Source: Verrucomicrobiia bacterium (GTDB lineage Bacteria > Verrucomicrobiota > Verrucomicrobiia > Limisphaerales > DASXHY01). From it: a DNA stretch of 49,753 nucleotides. The stretch is from NCBI GenBank assembly GCA_035629175.1, contig DASPIL010000057.1, positions 1 through 49,753 of the forward strand, given 5' to 3'. Shown here piece after piece: positions 6,641-43,551 of this stretch. Below the pieces are notes generated by a model that was given only the letters and a program-made list of their open reading frames with translations, was not told the DNA's origin and made no database searches. Each line of letters opens with the position of its first letter. Position 1 is the first letter of the stretch. The position numbers and the translations under genes are program-made.

Positions 6641-6707
6641 AAATCCTCACCGTCGCCGCCCGCTCGCCATCGGGCGCGGACTGCCGTTCTTTTCTGAATA
6701 CACGATT

Positions 6708-20708: not shown

Positions 20709-22205
20709 GTGCCTCCAGTTTCCACTCCTTCGCGATGGGCGGTCTTTTTGGGGATCGCCCTCCTTACGCTCCTCGTTCGGTTGCCGCATCTCGGTGAGCG
20801 GCCGATGCACACCGACGAGGCCGTAAACGGTTACATTACCGGCCAACTCCTCGCTGGCCAGCCGTATCAATATGACCCGCAGGATCGTCACGGTCCTGCC
20901 TTGTACCTTGCTGCCGTTCCAGCGTCCCGCCTCGCAGGTCAGAAACATCTTTCCGATCTCACCGAGCCGGTTCTTCGATCGATTCCTGCGATCTTCAGTT
21001 TCCTGACCGTTCTTCTTTTTGCCGTAGTCGCCAAACGCATCGGATTTATCAGCGCAATTCTGGGTGCCCTGTTGTTTGCAGTGGCGCCTTTGCCGGTTTA
21101 CTACGGCCGCTACTTCATTCACGAAATGCTGTTTGTGTTTGGGACGCTGGCGTTTCTGCTCTCAGGCTTGCGCGTGCTGGAGTCAAGATCTCACGGGGCT
21201 GCGGCGCTGGGCGCGTCAGCCGCGTTCATGCTCGCGTGCAAGGAAACTGCCGTACTCCATTTCGCGGCGGCAGCAGTGCCGCTGGTTTGGTGGCTCTGGG
21301 CGGAACGAAATTCAGGGACGGGTCGTCGTGTGGCTCTGCGGCAGTTCGTCAGCCCCGCGGCAAACGCATTTGTTGCATTCGTGTTGGTGACGCTTGCGTT
21401 TTACACGTGGGGCGGACGCAATTGGGAAGGACCAGTGGACCTCCTGAAATCCTTCCCGCGCTTTGCGCAACGGGCTGGCGGCGAAGGACACGAAAAGCCG
21501 TATTACTATTATGGGCTTCTGCTGGGCGGTAGCGGCGCAGGATGGGGACTCATCGGGCTGGCAATTTACGGAACCTGGCTCAGCTTGAAAGCGCTTCGAA
21601 GCAGTGCAACCCGCACGCTGCCGCTGCCAATGCTCGGATTTTACTGCATCGCGATCCTCATTCTCTACAGTGCGATTCCTTACAAGAATCCGTGGCTCGG
21701 ATTGAACCTTTGGCTGCCAATCGCGCTGCTGGCCGGAGTCGGTTTCCAGAAGCTGTGGTTCGCGCGACAACGCGCTGCGGCTCGCGCGGCGCTCATTCTG
21801 GGTGCAACGGCGCTGCTCGCGCTGTCGGGCCAAGAAACATGGAAGTGGGGCTTCGCACGGCCGTCTGACGACAGAAATCCGTATGCATATGCCCACACCG
21901 TGGAAGACCTGCTCGGATTGCCGGAACGCCTGAAAGCGTTGACTCACACCAACACCGCGCGGGTGCGGATTTCAGTTGTCGCATCAGATCCGTGGCCACT
22001 CCCATGGTATCTGCGCAGATTCTCACGCGTGGGATATTATCAGCCCGGGCAGGACCCCGGGGTTGCTGATTTTTACGTCAGTTCGCTGGAGCCCGCGCCA
22101 AACCTCGAGGCTCGCGCGGAAGGCTGGCGATCTGAGTTTTTTGGGGTTCGTCCTGAAGTGCTGCTCCTGCTTTGGACACCTCCTGCTGCAGGGATCGATG
22201 AGTGA
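20709..22205 (+). CDS. Multipass membrane protein, Agl23/GT39-like (flippase-associated)
   Basis: A 498-aa integral membrane protein with roughly ten hydrophobic segments. The N-terminal loop LGERPMHTDEAVNGY carries the Asp-Glu pair found in GT-C type glycosyltransferases; PYYYYGLLLGG and YSAIPYKNPWLGLN are further blocks of the Agl23-like family (named for an archaeal protein encoded beside polysaccharide flippases). It probably transfers sugars from a lipid carrier outside the membrane; the acceptor is unknown. The start is GTG at 20709, supported by TGGAGG at 20696-20701 with 7-base spacing. The gene ends inside the start of apbE (8-base overlap), so the two are coupled. Confidence 0.83.
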   Translation: MPPVSTPSRWAVFLGIALLTLLVRLPHLGERPMHTDEAVNGYITGQLLAGQPYQYDPQDRHGPALYLAAVPASRLAGQKHLSDLTEPVLRSIPAIFSFLTVLLFAVVAKRIGFISAILGALLFAVAPLPVYYGRYFIHEMLFVFGTLAFLLSGLRVLESRSHGAAALGASAAFMLACKETAVLHFAAAAVPLVWWLWAERNSGTGRRVALRQFVSPAANAFVAFVLVTLAFYTWGGRNWEGPVDLLKSFPRFAQRAGGEGHEKPYYYYGLLLGGSGAGWGLIGLAIYGTWLSLKALRSSATRTLPLPMLGFYCIAILILYSAIPYKNPWLGLNLWLPIALLAGVGFQKLWFARQRAAARAALILGATALLALSGQETWKWGFARPSDDRNPYAYAHTVEDLLGLPERLKALTHTNTARVRISVVASDPWPLPWYLRRFSRVGYYQPGQDPGVADFYVSSLEPAPNLEARAEGWRSEFFGVRPEVLLLLWTPPAAGIDE

Positions 22206-23780: not shown

Positions 23781-23958
23781 AGTGTTGTTTTTTGGGTTGG
23801 ACGGATTGTGGTCAATTCATGTTGGGTCGACAACGAATTTTGCGAAACGGGCGCGCTGGCGTTCGGAACCCGCATGCACGCGCTCGTGCAATCGAATCAT
23901 GCTCGTTCCTGATCATCCGTCGTTGTCCTTCAGTAATGTTTTTACCATCGAAGCGTGA

Positions 23959-24138
23959 ATTAATCCCGCGGGCGCCGCGGATGTCGAGTACGCGGTTGAG
24001 GGTTCGGCCAATCTCGTCGACTGGATTCCTCTTGGTCCGGCAGTCTCCGTTGGAAGCGGTTCGTTCCAATTCACCGTTTCGGATGAGCAACACCCGTCAC
24101 CGCGCTTCTTCCGGTTTGTGCCAAATGGTTCGCCCTAG
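23959..24138 (+). pseudogene. Decayed C-terminal fragment of a LamG/Ig-type secreted protein
   Basis: Frame 23959-24138 (60 codons with stop TAG at 24136) reads DVEYAVEGSANLVDWIPLG, then GSGSFQFTV and RFFRFVPNGSP. This closely matches the extreme C-terminus of the giant protein next door (FYHVQMSTNLVDWVTIGT, ARFQFVH, CFYRF). An in-frame TGA at 23956 cuts it off upstream, and no start codon or ribosome site precedes it. It is therefore read as the tail of a lost paralog rather than a gene. The rest of the 458-base gap between 23781 and 24238 shows no other credible coding sequence. Confidence 0.68.
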
Positions 24139-24238
24139 CTCGAACATTGGAGACCAACCGTCGTTTGGGTCGGCAGGAATTCCCTTGACCTCGGTGTGCA
24201 TCGGCCCTGGAATGCGGTGCAGAGGTTTTAATTATCCA

Positions 24239-27200
24239 ATGAAAACTCGAGCCCACTCACTCGTCCGGCTGGCTTGCATGAAGATTGCACCGTGGTGTCT
24301 CGCACCAGGTCTTGTTGCGGCCGCGCCGTCCATCGAGATCTCTCGCTTCGCTGCAGTTGGTCTCCTTCCCGCCGGCAATCTCCCGTCGCGCGTCGCGGTG
24401 GGTGACTTCAACCGGGACGGAAAACCTGATCTTGCCGTTGCAAATTCGGGATCCCAAAATATATCGCTGTTTGAAAACCTGGGATTGCATCCGCTGAGTT
24501 CCAATACGTTTTCTGCGCCGATCCTCCTTTCGGGGCCGGTTGCCAGCGAAGTCCCATACAAGGTTGAGGTCGCGGACATTAACGGCGACGGGTGGGATGA
24601 TTTGTTAACAGCAAACCGCAGCTTGAATACGGTTTCCGTGTTCTGCAATGCGGCGCACACCGGGAGCGTGAGCGCGGCATCCTTTGAAGCGCCCGTGGAC
24701 CTCGTCACGGGTTCCTTCCCAATGGCCGTTGCTGTGCGCGATCTGGATGGGGACGGGCGTCCCGAAATCATCACAGCCAACTTCGAGGGCCAGTCGATTT
24801 CGGTATTGAAGAATCTTGGCAGCGGCGCTGATGTGACGTCTGCATCATTTGCCGGGCACATCGATTTTCCTGCGGGATCAGGAGCCGCGAACCTCGCATG
24901 TGCAGATTTCGACGGCGATTCAAAGCTCGACATCGCGGTGGTTAACTTCAAGGACACGATGGTTTCCATCCTGAAGAACACGACGGCTTCCAATACGATC
25001 TCTTCCAGCTCGTTTGCCTTCGCCGCCAGCTTGCCAGCGCCTCTCAGTTGCGAAGGCATTGCAGTGGGCGATTTGGACCGGGATGGACGTATCGATCTGG
25101 TTGCGGGCGCGTCGCTTGAGGGACAGCGCATTGCTATTTACCGGAACACAAGTTTTCCAGGACATCTGGAATCCATTTCGTTCGAGCCCAGGCATGATCT
25201 CGAAACTGGTGGCTGGACGCACAGTGTTGAACTTTCTGACCTCAACCGGGATGGGAAGCTGGATATCGCCGGGGTTACAGAGCAGCAAAGCCATCTGTTC
25301 ATCTTCGAGAATCGCAGTGAGCCTGGGGAATCGCCTACCAACTGGTTTGGGACTCGACTGGACCTGGCCACGGGTCTCAATGCCTGGGGATTGTCGGTAT
25401 CCGATCTCGATGGCGATTTGCGTCCAGACATTGTCCTTTGCAACGCATATGACAACAACGTCGGAATGTATCGCAACGAGCTGCCTTTGACACCCGGTGG
25501 AACCGCTTGTACGCCGGCCCCGTCCGGCCTCAGCGGTTGGTGGGCGGGAGACCATTCGGCTGATGATGGTATCGATGGCCACCATGGAGTCCTGTTGAAC
25601 AATGCTGGTTTCGCTGCTGGCGTGGTCGGTTCAGCACTGTCATTTGATGGCAACAACCAAGCCGTTCGAATCCCGCATTCAGCCGCTCTCTCAACTCCCA
25701 GTTACACAGTCGAGGCTTGGATCCGGCCTGCTGGGCAGGTGAATGATGCCATCGACCAGGAATTAATTTTCGGCCAGAGCTTTGGCTTTCCGCAATTGGT
25801 GGTTCGAAGAGGAGTCAGCGGTGTTCGGCTCTCGTGGCAGTTCGGAACAGACATGTTCAGCTTTTATGAGGTGGAAGCTCCGGAGGAGATTCCGATCGGA
25901 CAGTTTACCCACGTTGCAGGAACTTGGGATGGAATCGCGCTGCAATTGTATGTGAATGGAATTTTGACGGCGACAAGCACGCCTGGAACGGTGCCCGTGG
26001 ACTCAGGATGCGATTTCTTCATAGGCGGCTTTCACAGTGAAGGCGAAGAATGCGGTTATGTCGGTCAGTTCTTTAATGGTGTCATCGACGAACTCACGAT
26101 GTACAGCAGCGCGCTTGCATCATCGGACATCCATGCCATCTACGACGCGGGAGCGTTTGGCAAATGCCGCCCCATCGTGGGGACACCCTTGCCTGTGATC
26201 GCGGTTCAACCTCACAGCACCAATGTGTTCGAAGGTGAACGCGCTTCTTTCAGCATCGCGTTTCAAAGCGCCGCTCCAGCGAGCGTCCGATGGCAATTCA
26301 ACGGCACAAACATACCGATCGGAACAACCGCGACTTACACAATCCTTAACGCACAAGCTGCCCACGAGGGCGAGTACCGTGCCGTTATCAGCAATGCTGG
26401 CGGTTCGGTAACGAGCATTGTCGCCCGATTGACGACTAAACCCGGTCCCAATTGCACCCCCGTCGCACAGGGATTGGTCGGTTGGTGGCGATTTGAAGAC
26501 GATCTGCTCGACTCATGGGGAACCAACGATTTCCTTGAATCGACGCTGGTCAGCGGCTTTGTGTCAGGGAAGGTGGGTCGCGCGTTCCATGTATGGAGCG
26601 GTCGCTTGAACTCCTTTGTATTCGTTCCGCACACCTCGTCGTTGAATTTGACCGAGGCTATTTCAGTGGAGGCGTGGGTGCAGCCGGGTGTGCCGAGCTC
26701 GGCCCAAACCATCCTGAGCAAAAGCGATCCTGGGATGACAACCGGTTTCGCGTTCGGAATAACAAATGCGCGTCCGTACTTTGCGATTGGATCGGGAACG
26801 GCGGGATCCGCGACTGTGATTGCGCCCGCCGCGCTCCCGTCCGCCGCATGGAACTACGTCACGGCGACGTTCAATGGCGCGATGTTGAAGCTTTATACGA
26901 ATGGCGCGGTAGCCGCCACCGCGCCGCATGCCGCGGCAATTGCAGCGAATCAGAGCAATATGATAATCGGCCCGCAGGCCGGCGCTTCGCCCTTTTCGGG
27001 CTCTGTCGTGGTTGATGAACTTGCCCTCCACCGCCGCGCTCTGGCTGCGGAGGAAATTCGTGAAATCTTCAACTCGTCTCGTTCGGGCCGATGCCTGCCC
27101 CCGCCGCAGGTTGTATCCAACCCCCTGAGCCAGGCGATCCCTGAAGGCGAAGATTTGCTGCTGCAAGTGACGGCAACAGGCGGCAAGCCCGTTTCCTACC

Positions 27201-28336
27201 AATGGAGTTTCAATAGAACCAACATTCCACATGCCACAGGCCGGACGTTGCATATCCCTCGGATTGAAGCTGCCCAGGCGGGGTTCTACTCTGTCTCGAT
27301 CAGCAACCGGACCGGCATGGTGGTGAGTTCCAGCGCGCACGTGAAGGTGGTCGCGGCAAACAGCTGCATGGAATCCCCCGCAGGCTTGTTGGCGTGGTGG
27401 CCCGGGGACGGATCGACAATTGAAATCGTGAGCGGGCGAACAGCCACTGCGTTGGGGGCCCGGTACAGCACGGGGAAAGTCGCGCAAGCTTTCAATCTTA
27501 CTGGAGGTGGTATCAGACTGCCGCATTATCCTGAGCTCGAAGGTTTCGCAGAGGCCAGCTTTAGCCTGGAGGCGTGGGTACGGCTGAGTACGAATCCTAC
27601 AATCCGCTGGCTGGGCACTCCGGAATTTGTTATTGCCGACAACCGCGGCGTGGCGATCCCCCAGCCTCCGACGCCGGAAACAGCGAGTTATGTTTTTGCA
27701 GTCAACAACGGGCAGCTTGTTTTCTCGTTCGAGTCAGCCGGGCCGTTGCCTAAAGTGACTTCGCAGAGTGTGTCGGGCGGACCTGAATTGCGCGACGGCG
27801 TCTACCATCATGTGGCCGTCTCGTTTCAGCGCGGTGCAACAAACCAATGCATTCTCTATGTGGACGGGCGCGTTGTGGCGTCCGTGAAATCCACGAACCT
27901 GTTCCGTGGCACAATCCCGAATCTGGGTCCTGCTTTTCTAGGACAGCGAAGTTTCAGTTTTTATCCGAAGCCCGCTGGCCCGCAATTCGGCGAGCTGGAC
28001 GAGCTGGCACTCTATGATCGCGCGCTGCATGGGGCCGAAATCGAGGCTATTGCACGCAACGGCCGGGCCGGCAAATGCAAAGAGCTGCCATCCATCATTG
28101 TTCAACCCGCCGAAGAGTCTGTTCGCGCGAACCTGCAATTCGTTGCGAATGAAAGAGTGGTCGAATTCTCGGGCTCCCCCGACGGATTCTATCACGTGCA
28201 AATGTCAACGAACCTTGTCGATTGGGTGACTATCGGAACCGCGGTGCGCGTGAATGGTGCGCGTTTTCAGTTCGTGCACGCAGATGCGAAAGCTGAGCCT
28301 TCCTGTTTCTATCGATTCATCGAAGCAGGGCACTGA
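24239..28336 (+). CDS. Giant secreted protein: seven FG-GAP repeats, three LamG domains, two Ig-like domains
   Basis: A 1365-aa exported protein; the ATG at 24239 begins a plausible signal peptide with hydrophobic IAPWCLAPGLVAAAPS after a basic start (ATG at 24278 is possible). Residues 37-417 hold seven FG-GAP/VCBS repeats with Ca-binding cores such as GDFNRDGKPDLAV, ADINGDGWDDLLT and SDLDGDLRPDIVL, predicting one seven-bladed propeller. Then LamG 1 (about 429-637, SGLSGWWAGDH and YTVEAWIRPAG), Ig 1 (649-730), LamG 2 (740-953), Ig 2 (957-1037), LamG 3 (1045-1278) and an 85-residue C-terminal beta domain. There is no PEP-CTERM or other sorting tail. Probably adhesive or glycan binding outside the cell. 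An internal duplication history is suggested by the LamG-Ig alternation and by the related remnant upstream. Confidence 0.87.
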   Translation: MKTRAHSLVRLACMKIAPWCLAPGLVAAAPSIEISRFAAVGLLPAGNLPSRVAVGDFNRDGKPDLAVANSGSQNISLFENLGLHPLSSNTFSAPILLSGPVASEVPYKVEVADINGDGWDDLLTANRSLNTVSVFCNAAHTGSVSAASFEAPVDLVTGSFPMAVAVRDLDGDGRPEIITANFEGQSISVLKNLGSGADVTSASFAGHIDFPAGSGAANLACADFDGDSKLDIAVVNFKDTMVSILKNTTASNTISSSSFAFAASLPAPLSCEGIAVGDLDRDGRIDLVAGASLEGQRIAIYRNTSFPGHLESISFEPRHDLETGGWTHSVELSDLNRDGKLDIAGVTEQQSHLFIFENRSEPGESPTNWFGTRLDLATGLNAWGLSVSDLDGDLRPDIVLCNAYDNNVGMYRNELPLTPGGTACTPAPSGLSGWWAGDHSADDGIDGHHGVLLNNAGFAAGVVGSALSFDGNNQAVRIPHSAALSTPSYTVEAWIRPAGQVNDAIDQELIFGQSFGFPQLVVRRGVSGVRLSWQFGTDMFSFYEVEAPEEIPIGQFTHVAGTWDGIALQLYVNGILTATSTPGTVPVDSGCDFFIGGFHSEGEECGYVGQFFNGVIDELTMYSSALASSDIHAIYDAGAFGKCRPIVGTPLPVIAVQPHSTNVFEGERASFSIAFQSAAPASVRWQFNGTNIPIGTTATYTILNAQAAHEGEYRAVISNAGGSVTSIVARLTTKPGPNCTPVAQGLVGWWRFEDDLLDSWGTNDFLESTLVSGFVSGKVGRAFHVWSGRLNSFVFVPHTSSLNLTEAISVEAWVQPGVPSSAQTILSKSDPGMTTGFAFGITNARPYFAIGSGTAGSATVIAPAALPSAAWNYVTATFNGAMLKLYTNGAVAATAPHAAAIAANQSNMIIGPQAGASPFSGSVVVDELALHRRALAAEEIREIFNSSRSGRCLPPPQVVSNPLSQAIPEGEDLLLQVTATGGKPVSYQWSFNRTNIPHATGRTLHIPRIEAAQAGFYSVSISNRTGMVVSSSAHVKVVAANSCMESPAGLLAWWPGDGSTIEIVSGRTATALGARYSTGKVAQAFNLTGGGIRLPHYPELEGFAEASFSLEAWVRLSTNPTIRWLGTPEFVIADNRGVAIPQPPTPETASYVFAVNNGQLVFSFESAGPLPKVTSQSVSGGPELRDGVYHHVAVSFQRGATNQCILYVDGRVVASVKSTNLFRGTIPNLGPAFLGQRSFSFYPKPAGPQFGELDELALYDRALHGAEIEAIARNGRAGKCKELPSIIVQPAEESVRANLQFVANERVVEFSGSPDGFYHVQMSTNLVDWVTIGTAVRVNGARFQFVHADAKAEPSCFYRFIEAGH

Positions 28337-29538: not shown

Positions 29539-32052
29539 TTACCGTTCTGGAACTTCGATGATGTCGCCGTCGCGCAGGTGCAACTCGTCTGGCGGGGGGA
29601 CGGATCCGTTAAGAACGAGCCTGCTGCCGCCGCCCATGTGAGGCTGGGGTGGGAGAGCCTGACTCGGCGATTTCGCAATGCAACTGATTGTCCATACCTT
29701 TCGCGTGCCGTTCTCAGCGGTCCTCGTGATCTTGACGCGGGAGAGGTCGGATGAGGAGAGCAGGATTGCTTTTGCCTGGGCCGACTCCAAGACGTTGCAC
29801 AGGCGGGATGATTCAAATGGGTAAACAGCAATGAAAACCTGTTTATCGCGAAATCTCAGTTCGACAGTTCCTTTGACGCAGTTGTGGAGAGATTGAACCT
29901 GGTCTTGAGGCAGACCCGTCCACCGTTCGTCCAATGTATGTTCACGCTCGGGGATTTCTATGACATCCCCCCATTCCAGCGGAACGTTCTTTTCACAATC
30001 GATCGTTCCGTCCGCGCGAAGAATATTCAAGGTTTGGCGGGTTTCGCTCGTGCCTGGGAGCTGACGAATAATGGTGAGATCGGCAAAATCCGGAAATGTC
30101 GGGGGGCTCATGGGGTGGCTGTAGTTTACGAGAATCGCGTCAAGCAACGTGAAATGGTTCCAATCGTTCGTGCCGCGCCAGAAGACCGTTTTCAAGCCGG
30201 CGCCATTGCGTTGAATAGTGATGCGTGTGAAATCTGGAGGATTCTCGAGCGCGCCCTGCTGGCGAAGAAGGTCGGCGATCGCTGCGTATTGGTCAGCCAG
30301 TGCCGGTTCCCCTTTCTTGAGGCTTATGGCCAAACCTAGCGGCGACTCCGTTCCTAGGTTCCATTGAAATCGGCGATTGATGGGCACACCACGCTTGATG
30401 AGTTCCTCAACAACCGGCTGCATCCTGGCCGCGATCGCAAACATCAATACGGTTCCATCCTCCCGCTGAGGATCGGCTCCTGCTTCCAACAACGCCAGAG
30501 CCACGTCCGTCATTCGCTCTGCAATCGCCTGACGGATTATCGGTTGGCCGCGAAGACTCAGTGTGTTGGGATCGGCTTTATGCTTCAGCATGAGCAGGAC
30601 GAGTGAGCTCTCCTTTCGCGCCATAGCAAGTTGTATTGCGGAAATCGCGGGCGTCGGACCGATCACGTCTTCAATCCTTCCGCGGCGAAGAAATTGTTCA
30701 GCCGAAATATTCGGATCAGCCCCTGCGCGAAGCAGGGTTCCGCAAATTGTAAGTCTCTCTGGATTCCCAAATTCAATCGCACTGCTCAGTGGTAAATTCC
30801 GTGAGCCGCGATTAGGGTCTGCGCCAGCGGTCAGCAACCTCTCCACCATTTCCAGCGAAACTTGTGCCGCTATGCTGAGGGGGCTCCCGCCTTGGTTCAG
30901 GTGGTTTGGGTTCGCTTTTGCCGCGAGCAACACCTCAACTGTCCTAAGGTGGCCGTACGTTACTGCCTGAAACAACGGCGTTGAATCCGATTGATCGGCC
31001 GCATCCGCTTCGGCGCCATGTTGCAGGAGCACAGCGATGATTTCGGTGTGTCCTTTCGCGGCTGCAAGGTGAACGGGATTCTGACCATGCGAAGTCCGGG
31101 CATTCACGTCAGCCTTGTTTATTATCAAGGCCTCAGCCACAGGGACAAATCCTCCCTCTGCCGCGTCGTGCAACGGTGTGCGCCCCTGCGCCCGTCTTGC
31201 ATTCACGTCGGCTTTTGCGGCGATCAAGGATTCAACGACGGCTTTGTATCCGCGCGCCGACGCCACATGCAGAGCGGTTTCGCTCGTGATGTTTCGCGCC
31301 ATGACTTCCGCGCCGTGTTTCAGCAACAGGTCGACCATGGTTTTGTGTCCCGCCCTGGCTGCGTAATACAGAGGCACGGCGCCGTCTGAAGCCTGATTCA
31401 CGTTTGCGCCGTTGTTGATCAGGAAAGTGGCCACATGGACGTGTCCTTTCTCTGCGGCATTTGCGAGCGGGGTGCGAGAGGTGGCAGGACTGGCGTTGAT
31501 CAAGTCTGGGCTGTTCTGGATCATCGCCTGAATACGCCGAATCTCCTGTTCCTCTTCGTCTGTTATAACCTCGCCAACCGTTTTCGGAACGGGGACTGGC
31601 TGTGTGTCCCCCGCCGCAAAACCGCGAATGCCAGCCAGGTTCTGGCGGCTCAACGTGACGAGCATCTGCTGGTTACTGAACTCGCGAATGATGCGTTCGT
31701 AGTGCGGAACAGCCTCGTTGGTGCGGCCGAGTTTGCGATAGCATTCGCCGAGACGGAAGATGGCGGTCGCTGCAATTTATCGATTTCGGTCAAACTGCTT
31801 TGCCAATGCGTCGTAGCTCGCAATCGCGGCCTCGATGTCACGATTCGCCTCCTCCTCGAACAGACCTTGTTGCAGCAGAAATGTCAGGTCGTTGGTCGTT
31901 GCTGCTGGTGCGCTGCATGGCAGTGAAAGGAAGAGCGTCAGGCAGACGATCTTGGCGAACCCCTTCGCGCGCGCCGACAGACCTGCGAGCGCCCATGCGT
32001 GAGTCATCATCGCTGATACAAGTTCTTCCCTATCTGTGCGGAGTGTTTTCAT
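29539..32052 (-). pseudogene. Exported TPR-like/ankyrin-repeat protein with SLBB-like tail, broken by an in-frame TAA
   Basis: The frame from ATG 32052 is a single reading frame of 838 codons interrupted only by TAA at 31777-31779 (codon 92). Before it: a signal-anchor segment (FAKIVCLTLFLSLPCSAPAA) and a TPR-like helix (LLQQGLFEEEANRDIEAAIA). After it, in the same frame, the TPR resumes (FRLGECYRKLG and HYERIIREFS) with no start until 31665. About eleven ankyrin repeats follow (RTPLHDAAEGG, NPVHLAAAKGHTEIIAVLLQ), then two C-terminal segments ending WGDVIEIPERE and LRDGDIIEVPER that resemble SLBB-type beta-grasp repeats. CAA to TAA is the simplest cause. Readthrough or internal restart at 31665, giving a 708-aa ankyrin protein without an export signal, is possible. 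It lies downstream of the PhoB-type regulator, 109 bases away. Confidence 0.85.
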
Positions 32053-35320: not shown

Positions 35321-35359
35321 TTGAATATGAATGCACTCATTGAACACGTTCATATTCAA
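35321..35359 (+). promoter_or_regulatory. 11-bp stem hairpin covering the barrel gene start
   Basis: TTGAATATGAA (35321-35331) is perfectly complementary to TTCATATTCAA (35349-35359), with a 17-base loop. The first base of the ATG at 35331 is in the stem and the rest of the start region is in the loop, so folding could limit ribosome access. If translation instead begins at GTG 35373, the hairpin becomes a 5' leader structure 13 bases upstream. Confidence 0.6.
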
Positions 35360-36632
35360 GTTTCGTGACACAGTGATCTGGCACTTTCAAGCAGTCGCAA
35401 AATGTGCCGGATTGCTGGCGCTGGGTTCGTTGATCACGGTCGGGAAAGCGGCCGATGCCGCATCGACTTCGCAATTGAACTTCAAGGCGAACATTGCGCT
35501 GAAGGAAACGTTCGACAGCAATGTGTTCCTGCAATCGCACGGCCCGAAATCCGATCGCGGTTCCTTCGTCAGCAGCATCATTCCGCAAGCGGGAATGGGC
35601 TGGGACTCTGGCGCGCTGCTTCACGGGACCCTGACATATGGGCCCGAGGTGAACGTGTTTCATTCGGAGCATTCCGAAGATTTTATTCTCCACCGGGTCG
35701 CACTGAATGTCTCGGGGGCATCAGAAAAGACGGCGTATGAGGTCAGCGGCACAGCAGTGCACGTTGATGGCAATTCGCAAAGCCCGATCTGGACTGAAGA
35801 GGGGGGCGCGCCTGCAACCGGAGCGCCAGCAATCCGGGACCGTCGCGACGCAACCATCCTGCGGAGCAGCGCACGCATCACACAACATTTCGGAGAATGG
35901 TTTGCCCGCCCGGTCATCACGGCTTACGTGCATGACTTTCGCACCGAGCATCGGGAATCTGCAGGATATCAGAACGCGGTGGATCGAAGTGAATTCACGT
36001 TCGGCGGGGATTTCGGCCACAGCATCGGACGAAAGGCTGCGTTGTGGTGCGGGTATCGGTACGGAATTCAAGAGCAGGCAACGCTCTTTGATTCGAACGA
36101 GGATTATGACAACAGATTCCATCGCTTTCTCGCGGGCGTGGAGGGAGATCCGACTGATTGGCTGAAGGCGACAATCGCTATTGGACCGGAACTGAGGCGA
36201 TTTGGCAGCGACGTGGCGGGAGGGTTCGGATCGCGCGAGCGAATGAATGTATTCGTGGATGCCGCCCTGACATTCACGTTGTCACCTTCCGACACCGTGC
36301 GCATTGCAGCCAAGCGGTTTGAGCAGCCGGGATCAGGCGGCCGCAGCACGTATCAGGATCTGACGATCGACATGAACTGGCGCCATGAGCTGAACGCGCG
36401 ATGGACCATCGGGTTGGGTGGGCGGGCTTACAACACCGAGTTCAGGAAGCCCGCGATGCGCGACGACTGGGCCTTCACGGGAACGGCGTTTGTGAACGTC
36501 GCAATGACCGAACGTGTGAACGCCGAGTTTTCCTGCGTCCTGGAAAAAGGCCTGACGCACACGCCGCATGCATCGGGACGGGAATACACGCGGCATCTTC
36601 TTTCGATCGGGGTGAGATACACGTTTCGCTGA
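35331..36632 (+). CDS. Outer-membrane beta-barrel protein
   Basis: A 433-aa protein with a signal peptide (VAKCAGLLALGSLITVGKAADA) and a mature part of alternating amphipathic strands: ANIALKETFDSNVFL, GALLHGTLTYGPEVNVF, TYGPEV, AALWCGYRYGIQEQ, RWTIGLGGRAYNTEF, ending LLSIGVRYTFR. The pattern and aromatic C-terminus fit an outer-membrane barrel of the uncharacterised porin-like type. ATG 35331 lies in a hairpin; GTG at 35373 (reading MIWHFQAVAKCAG) would give a shorter signal peptide and is a real alternative. A CAGGG site at 35316-35320 favours 35331. The gene stands just upstream of the GH16 gene but is separated by a 319-base gap. Confidence 0.8.
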   Translation: MHSLNTFIFKFRDTVIWHFQAVAKCAGLLALGSLITVGKAADAASTSQLNFKANIALKETFDSNVFLQSHGPKSDRGSFVSSIIPQAGMGWDSGALLHGTLTYGPEVNVFHSEHSEDFILHRVALNVSGASEKTAYEVSGTAVHVDGNSQSPIWTEEGGAPATGAPAIRDRRDATILRSSARITQHFGEWFARPVITAYVHDFRTEHRESAGYQNAVDRSEFTFGGDFGHSIGRKAALWCGYRYGIQEQATLFDSNEDYDNRFHRFLAGVEGDPTDWLKATIAIGPELRRFGSDVAGGFGSRERMNVFVDAALTFTLSPSDTVRIAAKRFEQPGSGGRSTYQDLTIDMNWRHELNARWTIGLGGRAYNTEFRKPAMRDDWAFTGTAFVNVAMTERVNAEFSCVLEKGLTHTPHASGREYTRHLLSIGVRYTFR

Positions 36633-36688: not shown

Positions 36689-36951
36689 GCGGAATGCAGC
36701 GATTCTGATATTCATCATCACACTCACTCACCGGACTGATCCACTCAATCCTGAGCGACGCTGGAGTTATCGATGGCTGCGGGACGGAAGTCTTTTTGCG
36801 GAGTCGGTTTAGCGTTGGTCGAAGGTTCGTTCGCATAACAAATCACTTTTCGGAGCCGCATGATCTGGGGCAGTTCAGGTCTGCTGTTCGTTGTTTGAAC
36901 CCAACACAAACCCCAACACAACCCAACAAACTACAGGGAGCAAACACACCT

Positions 36952-37620
36952 ATGGAGAACACAACCAAAACCACAGTGGCAGCCCTCGCGCTCGCCATGG
37001 CAGGAATCGCCTCCTCACCCGCGGCGTGGGTCAACAACGGCCAGTATCCCTGGGGATCATCAACACACAACGGGAACGTCTACATGGTGACGTCAGCGGT
37101 GACGCCAGTATCTGGCGGCTATCGGATTACGGCGTCCCAGCCTGGCCTGAACGGAAAGAAGTATCGCTCGGGCGTGATCTATGAAAGCGGCACGCTGAAG
37201 CTGCGCTCGAACAAGGCGATCGGCGCGCAGGCCCGCGTTTCGGCTCCCACTGCGCGTGGTACGTGGCCCGCCTTCTGGATCACAACACTCGGCGGCTGGA
37301 CTGGAGAAGTGGACATTGCCGAATGGAAGGGCAGCGGCACGGTTTGGCAGAACACCTACGACGGCGGATGGGAGAATTATACCCGTTCGTCGAACAATAC
37401 GATGTACAAGACTCACATCCAGGCCAAAAACGACGGCACCAACCATGCCTGGGTCTGGCTCTACATCAACAACGCCTGGAGCGCGACGCATACGGGCAAT
37501 AACTTCGTCGGCAAGGATTGGTGGCTGATCGCCAACCTGCAGATGGAAGGCTCGTCAGGGTCGCCTGGTCCCACAAGCGCGCAGGTTACATTCACAAGCA
37601 TGTCTGCCTGGGGCTTCTGA
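36952..37620 (+). CDS. Secreted GH16-like endo-glycanase
   Basis: A compact 222-aa exported enzyme with a signal peptide (TTVAALALAMAGIASSPAA). The concanavalin-like fold of GH16 is supported by RGTWPAFWITT and by the catalytic motif EVDIAE (Glu119, Asp121, Glu124), matching the ExDxxE of GH16, where the two glutamates are nucleophile and acid/base. GH16 enzymes cut beta-1,3 or mixed glucans, agar, carrageenan or xyloglucan; the substrate cannot be told here. At roughly 200 residues after cleavage it lies at the short end of the family. The ATG at 36952 follows AGGGAG (36935-36940) at 11 bases. A GH3 gene and a propeller kinase are nearby, consistent with glucan use. Confidence 0.83.
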   Translation: MENTTKTTVAALALAMAGIASSPAAWVNNGQYPWGSSTHNGNVYMVTSAVTPVSGGYRITASQPGLNGKKYRSGVIYESGTLKLRSNKAIGAQARVSAPTARGTWPAFWITTLGGWTGEVDIAEWKGSGTVWQNTYDGGWENYTRSSNNTMYKTHIQAKNDGTNHAWVWLYINNAWSATHTGNNFVGKDWWLIANLQMEGSSGSPGPTSAQVTFTSMSAWGF

Positions 37621-37700: not shown

Positions 37701-38879
37701 ATGAGTCATTTGCGTATCCCCACATCCTGGAATTTCGCGGCGGCTGCGATGCTCCTCCTTGTTGCAACCGCCTGCACTGGTCCCTCCACTTCCCGCCGCG
37801 ATATAGCGGTGTTCGTCAACGGCGATCCCATTCCGCATGCAGAGGTGGAAGCCGAAGCCGACCGCTGGATCAACGCGAACAAGGCGCGCGACGCGTCGAA
37901 GGGAATCATTTTCGAAGAGTCGGGCCGCGAAGCCACCCGCGCGCTCCTGCGTCACGAGGTTTTGGAGTCGCTGATTGAACGCAGATTGATCGCGCAACAA
38001 CTTCGCGCCGATAATCTTGAGATCACCGAGGATGAGGTTGACAAGCATCTGCAGGCCAGGATGCGGGCGCTCGGGCAGACACCCGGGCAGGCGGCGCAGG
38101 AAATTGAAGAGCAGGGGAAAACGCTCGGCGACGTTCGCGAACGCATCCGCTGGCACACGCTCGGGGTTGAGAAGCTCTACACCGTGCACGCTGCGGACAA
38201 GCAAACGCTGAGCGATGAGGCCGCGTTGAAACTCTACAACGATTACCCCGCGGAGTTCGATCGCGAAGAGGAGCGTCGAGTCCGGCACATTCTTATCCGC
38301 GTGAACCCCGACGCATCAGCGAAAGTGAAACAGGCCGCGCGGGCGAAAATGGAACAACTGCTTCAGCGCATTCGCGCAGGCGAGGACTTCGCCGCGCTGG
38401 CGAAGGAATACTCCGACGATGAATTGAGCCGGAATCGCGGTGGCGACCGCGGCTTTTCAGGACGCGGATTTATTCGAGGGCCTGGGGATGATCCGTTCGG
38501 CGACGTTGCCTTTGCCATGAAGCAGATTGGCGAAATCAGCGATGTTGTCGAAACCCGCGACGGATTTCATGTGATTGAACTTACAGGGTTGAAGGAAGCG
38601 CGCCGGCTCAGCTTTGAAGAGGTTAAGGACGGGATGATTGCTGATTTTCGGCATCGGGAAATTGGCCGTTTCTGGAGCCGGTTCGGCGGCGACCTGCGTG
38701 CTGCCGCAAATCTTGACTGGACCTCGCACGAACTGTTCCGCCAGGCCAGGGCAAAGCGGCTCCAGGAAAAGCACAATGCGAAGATCGAACGCATGATTGC
38801 GCGTGAACAGCGAAAGGCGGGTGAAGCGCCGCCTGAAGATGGCGCGGCTGCGACGGAACTCAGGACCGATGTTCGCTGA
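37701..38879 (+). CDS. Parvulin-type peptidyl-prolyl isomerase, exported (SurA/PrsA-like)
   Basis: A 392-aa periplasmic chaperone. The signal region NFAAAAMLLLVATACTG has a Cys25 that may be a lipidation site (VATAC is a loose lipobox). An N-terminal SurA-type helical region (about 35-190, AVFVNGDPIPHAEVEAE and LIERRLIAQQL) precedes a parvulin domain (about 190-300: RRVRHILIRVNPDAS, DFAALAKEYSDD, GGDRGFSGRGFI, ISDVVETRDGFHVIEL). Such proteins help outer-membrane or secreted proteins fold. The C-terminal tail is basic and helical. It sits 5' of the two paralogous anchored proteins, and the first of these starts 9 bases after its stop, so the three form one operon. Confidence 0.9.
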   Translation: MSHLRIPTSWNFAAAAMLLLVATACTGPSTSRRDIAVFVNGDPIPHAEVEAEADRWINANKARDASKGIIFEESGREATRALLRHEVLESLIERRLIAQQLRADNLEITEDEVDKHLQARMRALGQTPGQAAQEIEEQGKTLGDVRERIRWHTLGVEKLYTVHAADKQTLSDEAALKLYNDYPAEFDREEERRVRHILIRVNPDASAKVKQAARAKMEQLLQRIRAGEDFAALAKEYSDDELSRNRGGDRGFSGRGFIRGPGDDPFGDVAFAMKQIGEISDVVETRDGFHVIELTGLKEARRLSFEEVKDGMIADFRHREIGRFWSRFGGDLRAAANLDWTSHELFRQARAKRLQEKHNAKIERMIAREQRKAGEAPPEDGAAATELRTDVR

Positions 38880-38888
38880 GGAGGTTCT

Positions 38889-40127
38889 GTGAACGGAAAG
38901 TTCGTCTTTGCGGCGTCGCTCTCGCTCAACGCGGCACTTGTCATTGCGCTGGTGTCGTTGCAGGACGTCACGTCCGGGGCTGACCCAACTTTCGTGACCG
39001 CGATTGATTCTCCGGCTGTGCCGCCGCTGCAGGCCGTGGTTATCGACTCGGAGGCAAACCCGTCCGCCATAAAGCAGATTCCTTTTCGATGGAGCTCATT
39101 GGAGTCGCAGGATTACCGCCAATACGTCAGCAACCTGCGCGCGATCCATTGTCCCGAAGAGACGCTGCGCGACATCATCGTCGCAGATCTGGATCAGCTC
39201 TGCGCGTCGAAGCCCGGGCACACGCCTCCCAATCCCGCGCCGTGGAATGGAGCGACGCGACGCCGGGCGTTGGAGCGGCAGCATGTGCTTTCACGGGCTG
39301 CAATGGCTGCTGAAAAGCGCGCACTGGTCCGGGAATTGATTGGCTATCCATGGGACCATTCCAGCCGCGACGTGTGGCATCAGGATTCCTACACGTCCAT
39401 TTTGCTGGGGTTCCTGGCTGCGTCGAAAGGACCACAGTTGCTTTCTCTTCTTGCCGACGCCACCGAGCAGGCGCGCGCCATAAAAGAGGCTTCGGGAGGA
39501 ATATTGATTGCAGAAGATCGGGAGGCACTGCGCCGGCTTTACCACACTCTTCAGCGCGAAATGTCGGGGATGCTGTCTGCAGCGGATAAACTGGAGTTCG
39601 AATTGCGAACGCAGGCTGGAGCGTATCTGCCTGTGGAGGATATCCACTGGGACGGCGTCACGATCAACGGAGGCGAACTGCGGGAATTCGTGCGGTTCTC
39701 GTTGGAGCATCGGGACATGTTCGCTGAGGAATTCCTGGCCGAAGCTCCGCTTGCCGGAGATACGATTGAAGCGAAGAGAACCGCGTTCACAAGCCGCGTG
39801 CGAACGATGCTCGGCCCGGTGCGATTCTCGGATTACGAACGGGCGCAGGACCAGGCATTCCGGGAACTGTTCGCGTTTACAGCCGCGCGAAACATGACAC
39901 GAGATGTTGCCGTGCACATTTACAACACCTGCCGGGCGGCGGAATCGCAGGCGTCGCAGGTTCGCAACGACGCGACACTTTCCGCTGAAGAACAACTCGC
40001 CGCCCTGGCGGTGCTGAAGTCAATGACCACAAAATCCGTTGCGGCGCGGCTGGGTGCTGATTACCGCGAGTATGTGAGCGGCGCCGGACAATGGATGTCG
40101 ATCCTGCAACAAGAGGAAGCCAATTAG
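38889..40127 (+). CDS. Anchored protein of unknown function, paralog 1 (CPEETLRDIIVAD motif)
   Basis: I do not recognise a described family. The 412-aa protein has an N-terminal membrane anchor (FVFAASLSLNAALVIALVSL, residues 5-24) and should face the periplasm. A conserved block reads FRWSSLESQDYRQYVSNLR then CPEETLRDIIVADL near residues 66-103; the next protein has the same block. The remainder is mostly helical, with a central segment near residues 175-270 and a helical C-terminus. The start is GTG at 38889 with GGAGG at 38880-38884 close behind the parvulin stop, so translation is coupled. The link to a folding chaperone suggests an envelope role. The block occurs, from memory, in many hypothetical proteins of this bacterial group. 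Confidence 0.8.
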   Translation: MNGKFVFAASLSLNAALVIALVSLQDVTSGADPTFVTAIDSPAVPPLQAVVIDSEANPSAIKQIPFRWSSLESQDYRQYVSNLRAIHCPEETLRDIIVADLDQLCASKPGHTPPNPAPWNGATRRRALERQHVLSRAAMAAEKRALVRELIGYPWDHSSRDVWHQDSYTSILLGFLAASKGPQLLSLLADATEQARAIKEASGGILIAEDREALRRLYHTLQREMSGMLSAADKLEFELRTQAGAYLPVEDIHWDGVTINGGELREFVRFSLEHRDMFAEEFLAEAPLAGDTIEAKRTAFTSRVRTMLGPVRFSDYERAQDQAFRELFAFTAARNMTRDVAVHIYNTCRAAESQASQVRNDATLSAEEQLAALAVLKSMTTKSVAARLGADYREYVSGAGQWMSILQQEEAN

Positions 40128-40136
40128 CTTCGCGCG

Positions 40137-41210
40137 ATGAACCTGTTACTGCGCACATCGTTGATCTTGAATATGGCACTCGGAATTGCGGTGCTGGCCT
40201 CGTTCATCGCCCGCAAACCACTCCGCAAACATGCCGTGGCGGCGAGTTTGCCTTCCAACGTGGAAGCAGAGCGAGGGCAGGACGAACGGAATGAACCTCT
40301 TGCGTTGGAAGCGGCGCAGCGCCAGTTCGATTGGGAGGCATTGTGCGATGCTGATTTGAAAGTCTACCGCCAGAATCTCGAGGCAGTGGGTTGTCCTTCG
40401 CAGACGATCGCCGACATCATCGTCGCGGAAATCAACGAGCGATTCCATGCGCGGCGTGAGGTGTTGATTCAGTCCTGCCAGGCGCGGTATTGGGATCTGG
40501 CATTGAAAGGCGAAGCAGCCATTCGATCGGAATGCTGTCCGCCGCTGGACGCCCTGGCCGCCGAACGCCAGGCCATGATTCAGGACGTACTCGGCGACCG
40601 GCCGCGGGTCAGCGAGCCCGTTTCCGCAAACCACCAAACCAGTGCAGTGGCCGAGGCAACGGCAACGCCCGACCTCGAAAATGCGGGAACCGACGCGCGC
40701 TTGTTGGGATCCCGTGAATCGCTTTGGGCGGCGGACTTGTCGGGATTCGAGCCGACCCGGGAGGAGTGGCGCCTGGTGACGCAATTGCGAATGGAATGGG
40801 TCGACGCACAGCAGGAGCTGGATCAACAGGAGCTTCCCCATGAAGAGAAGTTTCGGCGCGGAGAGCAGTTGCAGGCCGACCTGGATGCGCGCATTCGCGA
40901 GGTGTTAGGCGAGGAGCGGCACGCGGAATACGAACTCGCAAAAGATGGAGCATTTCAGGAGTTGCATCGCGTCGCGGAACGGTACGGCCTCGCGCGCGAG
41001 GTTGCGGCGCAGGCGCACCACATTGCCCGGACGACGCAACAGCAGCTGGAGACTCTTCGGAACAATTCGGCATTGAGCGAGCAGATTCGCCGCGCGACGA
41101 TCGAACGGGTCCTGAAGGAGGCGAAGCAGAGCCTTCAGGAAACGATGGGAGCGCGAGCGCTGGCGACGTATGGCGAGCACGGAGGCGACTGGCTGACTTC
41201 AGGATTGTAA
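40137..41210 (+). CDS. Anchored protein of unknown function, paralog 2 (CPSQTIADIIVAE motif)
   Basis: A 357-aa paralog of the preceding product. N-terminal anchor SLILNMALGIAVLASFI (residues 8-24), then FDWEALCDADLKVYRQNLE and CPSQTIADIIVAEI (about 63-102), which align with the block in paralog 1. After it comes a variable, acidic linker and a helical C-terminus rich in Glu, Gln and Arg (RLVTQLRMEWVDAQQELDQQ) that looks like a coiled coil. No catalytic motif was found. The gene starts 9 bases after paralog 1. The pair plus the parvulin is read as a co-evolving unit; heterodimer formation is a guess. Confidence 0.8.
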   Translation: MNLLLRTSLILNMALGIAVLASFIARKPLRKHAVAASLPSNVEAERGQDERNEPLALEAAQRQFDWEALCDADLKVYRQNLEAVGCPSQTIADIIVAEINERFHARREVLIQSCQARYWDLALKGEAAIRSECCPPLDALAAERQAMIQDVLGDRPRVSEPVSANHQTSAVAEATATPDLENAGTDARLLGSRESLWAADLSGFEPTREEWRLVTQLRMEWVDAQQELDQQELPHEEKFRRGEQLQADLDARIREVLGEERHAEYELAKDGAFQELHRVAERYGLAREVAAQAHHIARTTQQQLETLRNNSALSEQIRRATIERVLKEAKQSLQETMGARALATYGEHGGDWLTSGL

Positions 41211-41301
41211 TTGGTTTTCACGACGTGCCGGGTCCGGACACCGTGTTAGTGTCGCGGGGCGACGGACGGCGACGAACCGTCAGTTGTGCATCCTGAACAC
41301 A

Positions 41302-43551
41302 ATGAAAAACCTGCTGTCCACCGCGACCGCCCTCTTCCTGCTTGTGCAAAACGCCACCGCTTCCACGATTGACCATGAAGTTGACGAACTGCTCGGTAAG
41401 CTGTCGCTTGAAGAAAAGATCGGGCAGATGGTGCAACTGGATCTCCTGGTCGTGACGCGGGCCGGCAGCAATCCCATTCAGCTCGATCCCGCAAAGCTTC
41501 GCGAAGCTGTCGTCACCCACAAGATCGGCTCGTTCATCAACAACGGACTGGGCCGCGCTCTTTCCCTCGCGGAATGGACCTACGTTCACAAGACGATCCA
41601 GGACATGATCCGGGCGGAGACGCCAAACAAGGTGCCGCTGTTGTATGGGATTGATTCCATTCATGGAGCCACTTTTGTGAAGGATGGGACGTTGTTTCCG
41701 CAGAGCATTGGCATGGCAGCGACGCGCAATCCTGAATTGATGCGGTTGAGCTCGGAGGTTTCGGCGCGTGAGACGCGAGCAGCGGGACTTCGATGGACCT
41801 TTGCGCCCGTGCTCGACGTCGGACGCCAGCCGCTGTGGTCGCGGCTGCCTGAGACGTTCGGTGAAGATCCATTGCTTGCGTCAGTGTTTGGAGTCGCCGC
41901 GGTGAAAGGATTTCAAGGGAGCGATCTCAGTGCGCCCACGAGTGTCGCCGCCTGCATGAAGCACTACGTTGGGTATTCGTTTCCGTTCAACGGCAAGGAT
42001 CGATCACCTGCGTTAATTCCAGATCCCTACCTGCGCGAATATTTTCTGCCGCCCTTCCGGGAGGCAATCAAGGCTGGAGCCAGGACGATCATGGTCAATT
42101 CAGGCGAGGTGAATGGCGTTCCAGTGCATGGAAGCAAATATTACCTTACCGATGTCCTCCGGGGAGAGCTGGGTTTTGACGGCGTCGTTGTTTCAGATTG
42201 GGAGGATGTGATTCGCCTGCATAAATGGCATCGGATTGCGGAGACGCCTGCCGACGCGGTGCGAATCGCCGTTGAAGCGGGTCTCGACATCAGCATGGTG
42301 CCGCTGGATTACTCGTTTGCGAAGTTGCTCAAGCAACTCGTGATGGACGGCCGAGTGAACCAAGAACGCATCGACAAATCCGTTCGGCGCATTCTCAGAC
42401 TGAAGGTTGAATTGGGCCTGTTGCGAAATCCGTATGTTGAGGCGGAAGCGGCGGCGAACTTCGGACAGCCTGAGCATCAGCAGCTGGCCCTGCAGGCTGC
42501 AGAGGAATCATTGACCCTGTTGAAGAACGAACGGACGACGCTGCCGCTGAAAAAATCGGCGCGCGTTCTGGTCGCAGGTCCCGCGGCGAACAGCATCAGC
42601 GCGCTGCACGGCTGCTGGTCCTTCACGTGGCAGGGACTTGATGAAAGCAAATACCCCGCAAGCGCTCGTTCGATCCTGGAAGCGATTCGCGAAAAGGTCG
42701 GCGCTGGAAACGTAACTTACCATCAGGGCGTCACTTTTGCGGGCGGAGCCGTTGATCTGGAAAGCGCGGAACGCGCGGCGGCCAATGCCGATGCTGTGAT
42801 TCTTTGCCTCGGCGAGGACGCTTACGCGGAGACACCAGGCGACATCAGCTCACTCGACCTGCCTGCCGGACAACAGGAACTCGCGAGGCGATTGCAGGCT
42901 GCGGGCAAGCCGGTCGTGCTGGTCCTTGTGCAGGGACGCTGCCGCGTGATTCGCGAGATTGAGCCGGGTGCGGCGAGTATACTGCTCGCGTACTGGCCCG
43001 GGTCGCAGGGAGCACGCGCGATTGCCAATGTTATATTTGGCGACGCAGTTCCATCCGGAAAGCTGCCGTTCACTTATCCGCGATACGAGAATCATCTGCT
43101 GACGTATGATCGCAATCACACGGCGAGCATCAATGAATTTGAACCACCCGATCACACGCCCGCGAAGGAATTCAAACCGCAGTGGGAGTTTGGCACGGGA
43201 CTCAGCTACACGACGTTTGAAGTGCGCAATCTGCGGCTGGGCGCGCCCGTTTTGCGGGGCGCGGAAACATTGACCGTGGAGGTGGAGGTTGTGAACTCTG
43301 GAAAGCGGGCCGCCCCTGAGACCGTCGAGCTTTACACGCGCGATTTGTTTGCTTCGACGACGCCTCCTTCGAAGCGGCTGAGGGCATTTCAAAAGCTCTC
43401 CCTGAATCCCGGCGAAACCAAAATCGCGACCTTCGCCCTCACCGCAAGTGACCTGGCATTCGTCGATGCGCAAAGCCGGATCGTGACAGAACCTGGGGAT
43501 TTTGAAGTCCTGGTTGGCGGCTTGAAGGCTTCGTTTCGTTACGAGCCATAA
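41302..43551 (+). CDS. Exported GH3 beta-glycosidase
   Basis: A 749-aa glycoside hydrolase family 3 enzyme, likely a beta-glucosidase. A signal peptide (LLSTATALFLLVQNATAS) begins at ATG 41302; the frame is open to a TTG at 41284. The N-terminal TIM barrel shows KIGQMVQLD, LLYGIDSIHGATFV, CMKHYVGYSFPFNGKDRS and the nucleophile Asp299 in GVVVSDWEDV. The alpha/beta sandwich follows (LLKNERTTLPL, LCLGEDAYAETPGD, then WPGSQGARAIANVIFG and PSGKLPFTYPR), and a fibronectin-III-like C-terminus (ETLTVEVEVVNSGKRA to LVGGLKASF). It removes terminal sugars from oligosaccharides in the periplasm, fitting as partner to the GH16 enzyme upstream. There is no terminator before the next gene, about 95 bases on. 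Confidence 0.92.
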   Translation: MKNLLSTATALFLLVQNATASTIDHEVDELLGKLSLEEKIGQMVQLDLLVVTRAGSNPIQLDPAKLREAVVTHKIGSFINNGLGRALSLAEWTYVHKTIQDMIRAETPNKVPLLYGIDSIHGATFVKDGTLFPQSIGMAATRNPELMRLSSEVSARETRAAGLRWTFAPVLDVGRQPLWSRLPETFGEDPLLASVFGVAAVKGFQGSDLSAPTSVAACMKHYVGYSFPFNGKDRSPALIPDPYLREYFLPPFREAIKAGARTIMVNSGEVNGVPVHGSKYYLTDVLRGELGFDGVVVSDWEDVIRLHKWHRIAETPADAVRIAVEAGLDISMVPLDYSFAKLLKQLVMDGRVNQERIDKSVRRILRLKVELGLLRNPYVEAEAAANFGQPEHQQLALQAAEESLTLLKNERTTLPLKKSARVLVAGPAANSISALHGCWSFTWQGLDESKYPASARSILEAIREKVGAGNVTYHQGVTFAGGAVDLESAERAAANADAVILCLGEDAYAETPGDISSLDLPAGQQELARRLQAAGKPVVLVLVQGRCRVIREIEPGAASILLAYWPGSQGARAIANVIFGDAVPSGKLPFTYPRYENHLLTYDRNHTASINEFEPPDHTPAKEFKPQWEFGTGLSYTTFEVRNLRLGAPVLRGAETLTVEVEVVNSGKRAAPETVELYTRDLFASTTPPSKRLRAFQKLSLNPGETKIATFALTASDLAFVDAQSRIVTEPGDFEVLVGGLKASFRYEP

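Follow-up and report, generated by a model that had tools for sequence, protein, structure and literature searches.

Does a parvulin gene followed at short spacings by two genes for anchored proteins mark a single envelope unit, or do only some of these genes belong together? The question is raised by a 49,753-nucleotide contig of a Verrucomicrobiia bacterium, to whose whole length we refer as the window. On its + strand, three open frames, for a parvulin, protein A, and protein B, follow one another with gaps of 9 bp each; this is the arrangement of a parvulin and two anchored proteins that the original prediction had described. The features of the locus are as follows.

37701..38879, + strand: parvulin (SurA/PrsA-like), probable lipoprotein, 392 aa; PF00639, 88 bits
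38286..38585, + strand: PPIC rotamase domain of the parvulin; PF00639, 1.2e-24
38889..40127, + strand: protein A, 412 aa, GTG start; N-terminal membrane anchor, conserved block, and a helical part expected to be periplasmic
39084..39188, + strand: conserved N block of A, F-x-W ... NLR ... CPEET-LRDII; from alignments
39783..40100, + strand: C-terminal shared block of A, LG-x-x-R-x-x-x-Y ... G-x-W; from BLASTP of A against B and a search of the window's own genome
40125..40139, + strand: A/B junction (TAG, 9 bp, ATG); read from the sequence
40137..41210, + strand: protein B, 357 aa; paralog of A, with anchor and blocks as in A
40326..40430, + strand: conserved N block of B; from alignments
40881..41198, + strand: C-terminal shared block of B; from BLASTP of A against B

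Proteins A and B and their surroundings

Proteins A and B each have a single N-terminal hydrophobic stretch, and the block common to them reads FRWSSLESQDYRQYVSNLRAIHCPEETLRDIIVAD and FDWEALCDADLKVYRQNLEAVGCPSQTIADIIVAE. The anchor and the block F-x-W-x-x-L ... C-P-x-x-T-x-x-D-I-I-V-A that had been reported as shared are thus both present, and BLASTP adds a C-terminal block that had escaped the original prediction. Since the comparison of A with B gives matches in two stretches (3e-11 in the shared C-terminal stretch and 9e-9 in the N-terminal one), the likeness is not due to chance and is broader than was first seen; judged by their sequences, A and B are paralogs. The claim that they match no known family also stands: Neither has a match of useful score in Pfam or NCBIfam, and a Pfam scan of both detects no LysM domain.

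Five residues of the block (W68, L83, C88, P89, and T92) are invariant in 92 aligned rows, but most of these rows were found by a pattern that required CP, which biases the count for the cysteine. Among the 79 rows of the order that were found by profile, the Cys of the GCP motif is kept in 76; in the other family of the class in which these proteins occur, the position is mostly F, V, or L. We considered a reactive cysteine at GCP and rejected it because of these hydrophobic replacements, which make a buried position more likely than a catalytic one. Window protein B has five cysteines behind the anchor, where most relatives have one.

The three genes share their strand with a gene for a GH16-like protein upstream (36796-37620) and one for a GH3 glycoside hydrolase downstream (41284-43551), and these two, around the parvulin, A, and B, perhaps mark one beta-glucan operon. 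Further upstream lies an outer-membrane-barrel-like protein (35331-36632), whose likeness to TIGR03016 (PEP-CTERM system) is weak and below the cut-off. This barrel was considered as a partner of A and B and rejected, as it is near the family in only two of 13 places, one of them being locus L170, where a relative of it (6705-7979) lies directly 3′ of three family genes. Elsewhere in the window we note a 1514-aa protein with FG-GAP, LamG-like, and Ig domains (23792-28336), probably a large surface protein; a 708-aa ankyrin-repeat protein close to a two-component system (29539-31665); and a 498-aa open frame without a Pfam match at 1e-5 (20709-22205).

Distribution of the family and linkage to the parvulin

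The family to which A and B belong is concentrated in the window's order. In a sample of 58 relatives, one genome per family of that order, it is present in 49, with one to 11 copies where present; in a phylum-wide sample, it is found in 13 of 240 genomes, namely, the window's own and 12 from one other family of the class. Scanning species genomes added 80 further loci, nearly all titled Verrucomicrobiota; a few titles, Klebsiella and Proteobacteria MAGs among them, are probably mislabelled. Yet for all its frequency in the order, the family is named in none of the libraries searched (including Pfam and NCBIfam), and a limited search of the literature found nothing on it.

Nearly all members begin with a hydrophobic helix, and 16 out of 92 have a LysM domain according to Pfam. 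Most members are single genes, and with single members so abundant, the family needs no paired paralog in general. Family genes stand at three loci of the window's genome: as a pair in the window, as another pair on contig C1, and singly on contig C3, where the gene product also ends in LysM. Co-occurrence with exosortases is uninformative, since 54 of the 58 genomes have one. Some short members keep mainly the N block (L207:5766-6584, L208:5939-6835, L209:6279-7061, and L212:5689-6597); they adjoin similar-looking secreted proteins, two of them also adjoin SEL1-like genes, and two proteins near short members end in PEP-CTERM-like tails (L208:3781-4521 and L212:3491-4312).

A gene for a DUF6263-type lipoprotein lies directly upstream of other single members (loci L051, L055, L061, L064, and L069, and also L052, L063, and L065). 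In five of the eight loci read, its stop overlaps the ATG of the family gene (ATGA); to judge from these reading frames, the DUF6263-type lipoprotein is a second type of coupled partner of the family.

The window parvulin itself is readily recognized. Its PPIC domain (PF00639) scores 88.1 bits, over the curated cut-off of 21.7, and its SurA-like N-terminal part is over the cut-off for SurA_N_3. A lipobox-like VATAC indicates that it is probably a lipoprotein. It is not a named SurA, PrsA, or PpiD equivalog, the NCBIfam scores being far under the cut-offs (best, 74 vs. 303). It is the third parvulin of its genome, and its best relatives in the order are ∼30%–36% identical to it.

The original prediction took the parvulin, A, and B together for one envelope assembly or quality-control unit. 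The 9-bp spacings suggest one transcript, so the parvulin is perhaps cotranscribed with A and B; it is a probable envelope lipoprotein; and the family lineage directly behind DUF6263 lipoproteins indicates that linkage to a lipoprotein arose elsewhere too. However, a phmmer search of the flanks (up to 6 kb) of the 80 other loci found no parvulin, and none is present in the 1.5-kb flanks of A/B loci or near the second A/B pair of the window's own genome. When family matches and parvulin matches were compared by eye in the 48 genomes with family members, they had no contig in common, and within the order the window parvulin lacks a clear ortholog. Coupling of A and B to a folding chaperone is therefore not general, a unit of all three is refuted in that sense, and we hold it to be very unlikely as an account of this locus. 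The parvulin is a local neighbor outside the conserved unit, its linkage being called local on a sample in which the window's own family is represented by the window's genome alone. Wide occurrence of the block without a parvulin, or without any association in pairs, had been named from the outset as evidence against the idea; the first is what we observe, and the second is not.

The A/B pair and its junction

The association of A with B is visible in trees and profile searches alike. In a quick tree built from 30 pairs and 24 singles, A is a clade of 16 rows (99), and the second genes at these 16 loci group as a set of their own (96); the window pair and the second pair of the window's genome both fall in these sets. 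A tree of 139 members places window A in a 12-row clade (99) that comprises 10 first genes and two apparent singles, both on contigs that end within the second gene. When 196 genomes of the order were searched with an A profile, each of the 23 best loci (more than ∼320 bits) proved to have a family gene immediately 3′ of the match, in the same orientation. About 15 of these loci had not knowingly contributed to the profile, but the f27 members among them may be close copies of rows used to build it; seven come from families other than f27, two of which (f7 and f16) were not knowingly represented in the profile. Five of the next seven loci are single. With a B profile, every one of the 17 best matches has an A match immediately 5′ of it. 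The A/B loci span at least 10 families of the order (f1, f6, f7, f16, f22, f27, f28, f34, f38, and f49).

Four-base overlaps between genes are common in operons. At all 22 A/B junctions read elsewhere, some of them from loci closely related to each other, the frame of A extends four bases into that of B, counted from the likely start of B; the shared bases are ATGA in 20 cases and GTGA in two. The window pair is the exception, with no overlap but TAG, nine bases, and ATG. The trees, both profile searches, and the junctions bear out the pairing as a conserved unit, and adjacency and the order A then B are conserved across one Verrucomicrobiota lineage.

A and B might nonetheless be products of a tandem duplication that have diverged and work independently of each other, as monomers or homo-oligomers, with the linkage serving shared expression only. 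Tandem arrays do occur, with up to six copies, pairs arose several times, and the majority of members are single. Against this, the pairing is old: Order and adjacency are kept among A rows with a median identity of ∼26%, despite flanking genes that vary between A/B lineages, and every one of the 23 best A matches and of the 17 best B matches is paired. We consider separate action possible but doubtful. Co-divergence of A and B, after removal of near-copies, is weak (r 0.36; 177 of 5000 permutations as high).

Six family genes stand in a row at L164:8077-16024, as three A/B-like pairs; whole pairs were duplicated there, since the tree puts the first genes and the second genes in different clades. 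At loci L165, L166, L167, and L168, from the other family of the class, four to six members that have diverged strongly stand in arrays, with GCP altered to, for example, GFP, GVP, or GLP.

Short stop/start overlaps bring about coupled translation, and genes for the subunits of heteromeric complexes are enriched in them (PMC10666635). Because A and B are a conserved coupled pair, we infer that they are two subunits of a heteromeric envelope complex, a scaffold or adaptor drawn from an uncurated Verrucomicrobiota family, and give this reading a probability of about one-half. The persistence of order and overlap at the identity given above, while the flanking genes change, argues for the heteromer. 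Counted against it are the 9-bp gap in the window, the weak co-divergence, the many single members, the lack of LysM in A and B, and the commonness of overlaps.

Fold, possible role, and known systems

In its AlphaFold model (pLDDT 84.6, pTM 0.63), A consists of helices except for one small hairpin; a separate model of residues 172-412 has a pLDDT of 89.4. Neither the whole of A nor residues 172-412 have a fold match at E ≤ 0.001; VIA-align Z values do not exceed 7.5 and 6.5, respectively, and are scattered over unrelated folds. Profile self-comparison reported no internal repeats.

This near all-helical model raises the question of whether these proteins are membrane-held periplasmic chaperones or stress sensors of the Spy/CpxP kind. 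The repeated turns "LSPEELEEY" and "LGPERFxxYxRA" recall LTxxQ motifs, and the best stretch in a profile comparison with Spy/CpxP-type proteins falls on one such turn. That comparison, however, gives a probability of only 9%. LTXXQ (PF07813) and Metal_resist (PF13801) are not among the 25 Pfam families listed for 92 members, A having no Pfam match at all and B none to either of the two, and where relatives do have matches to these two models, the matching proteins are not family members. No Spy-like chain is found among the fold matches of either model, an absence that is no proof against a hooked helical hairpin. We therefore regard a chaperone or sensor of this type as improbable.

Under the preferred reading, a heteromeric complex of A and B, one N-terminal helix would hold each protein in the inner membrane, and the mostly helical part would be exposed to the periplasm. 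The ordered, usually overlapping pair would result in both being made together, in matched amounts. The complex would most likely be a structural scaffold or adaptor between the inner membrane and the cell wall, a role suggested by the anchor, the LysM-bearing relatives, and the absence of features typical of enzymes; where LysM stands at the C terminus, a relative would span the distance from membrane to peptidoglycan. The upstream parvulin may help to fold envelope proteins, A and B included, but would not be required. A bolder version, which we think rather unlikely, would have A and B as cotranslated paralogs with a new helical fold, forming an as yet undescribed two-subunit envelope machine of Verrucomicrobiota that bridges inner membrane and wall, was duplicated repeatedly by whole pairs, and can take on accessory lipoproteins such as the parvulin. 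With one clade recognized as a fixed ordered pair, what were "hypothetical proteins" become a two-subunit complex that can be tested, in an envelope of which little is understood, and the eye-catching link to a chaperone proves to be local.

Four known systems invite comparison. PpiC-type parvulins (SurA/PrsA) are represented by the upstream neighbor, with its PPIC domain and SurA-like N-terminal part, whereas A and B themselves lack a parvulin domain and, at other loci, any linkage to parvulins. Spy/CpxP proteins (LTXXQ, Metal_resist) are likewise helical envelope proteins with motif-like turns between helices, but the A/B family has no significant sequence, profile, or fold match to them. 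With LysM-domain envelope proteins, the family has in common that a subset of its members, including the C3 paralog of the window's genome, ends in LysM; A and B do not, and none of the libraries searched contains the family's defining helical part. The overlapping gene pairs for heteromer subunits (PMC10666635) resemble A/B in their kept order and 4-bp stop/start overlap, and A/B differs from them in being paralogs of an uncurated family whose complex is a predicted one. The kind of system, a coupled pair of paralogous subunits, is thus a known one, while the A/B family and pair appear to be undescribed.
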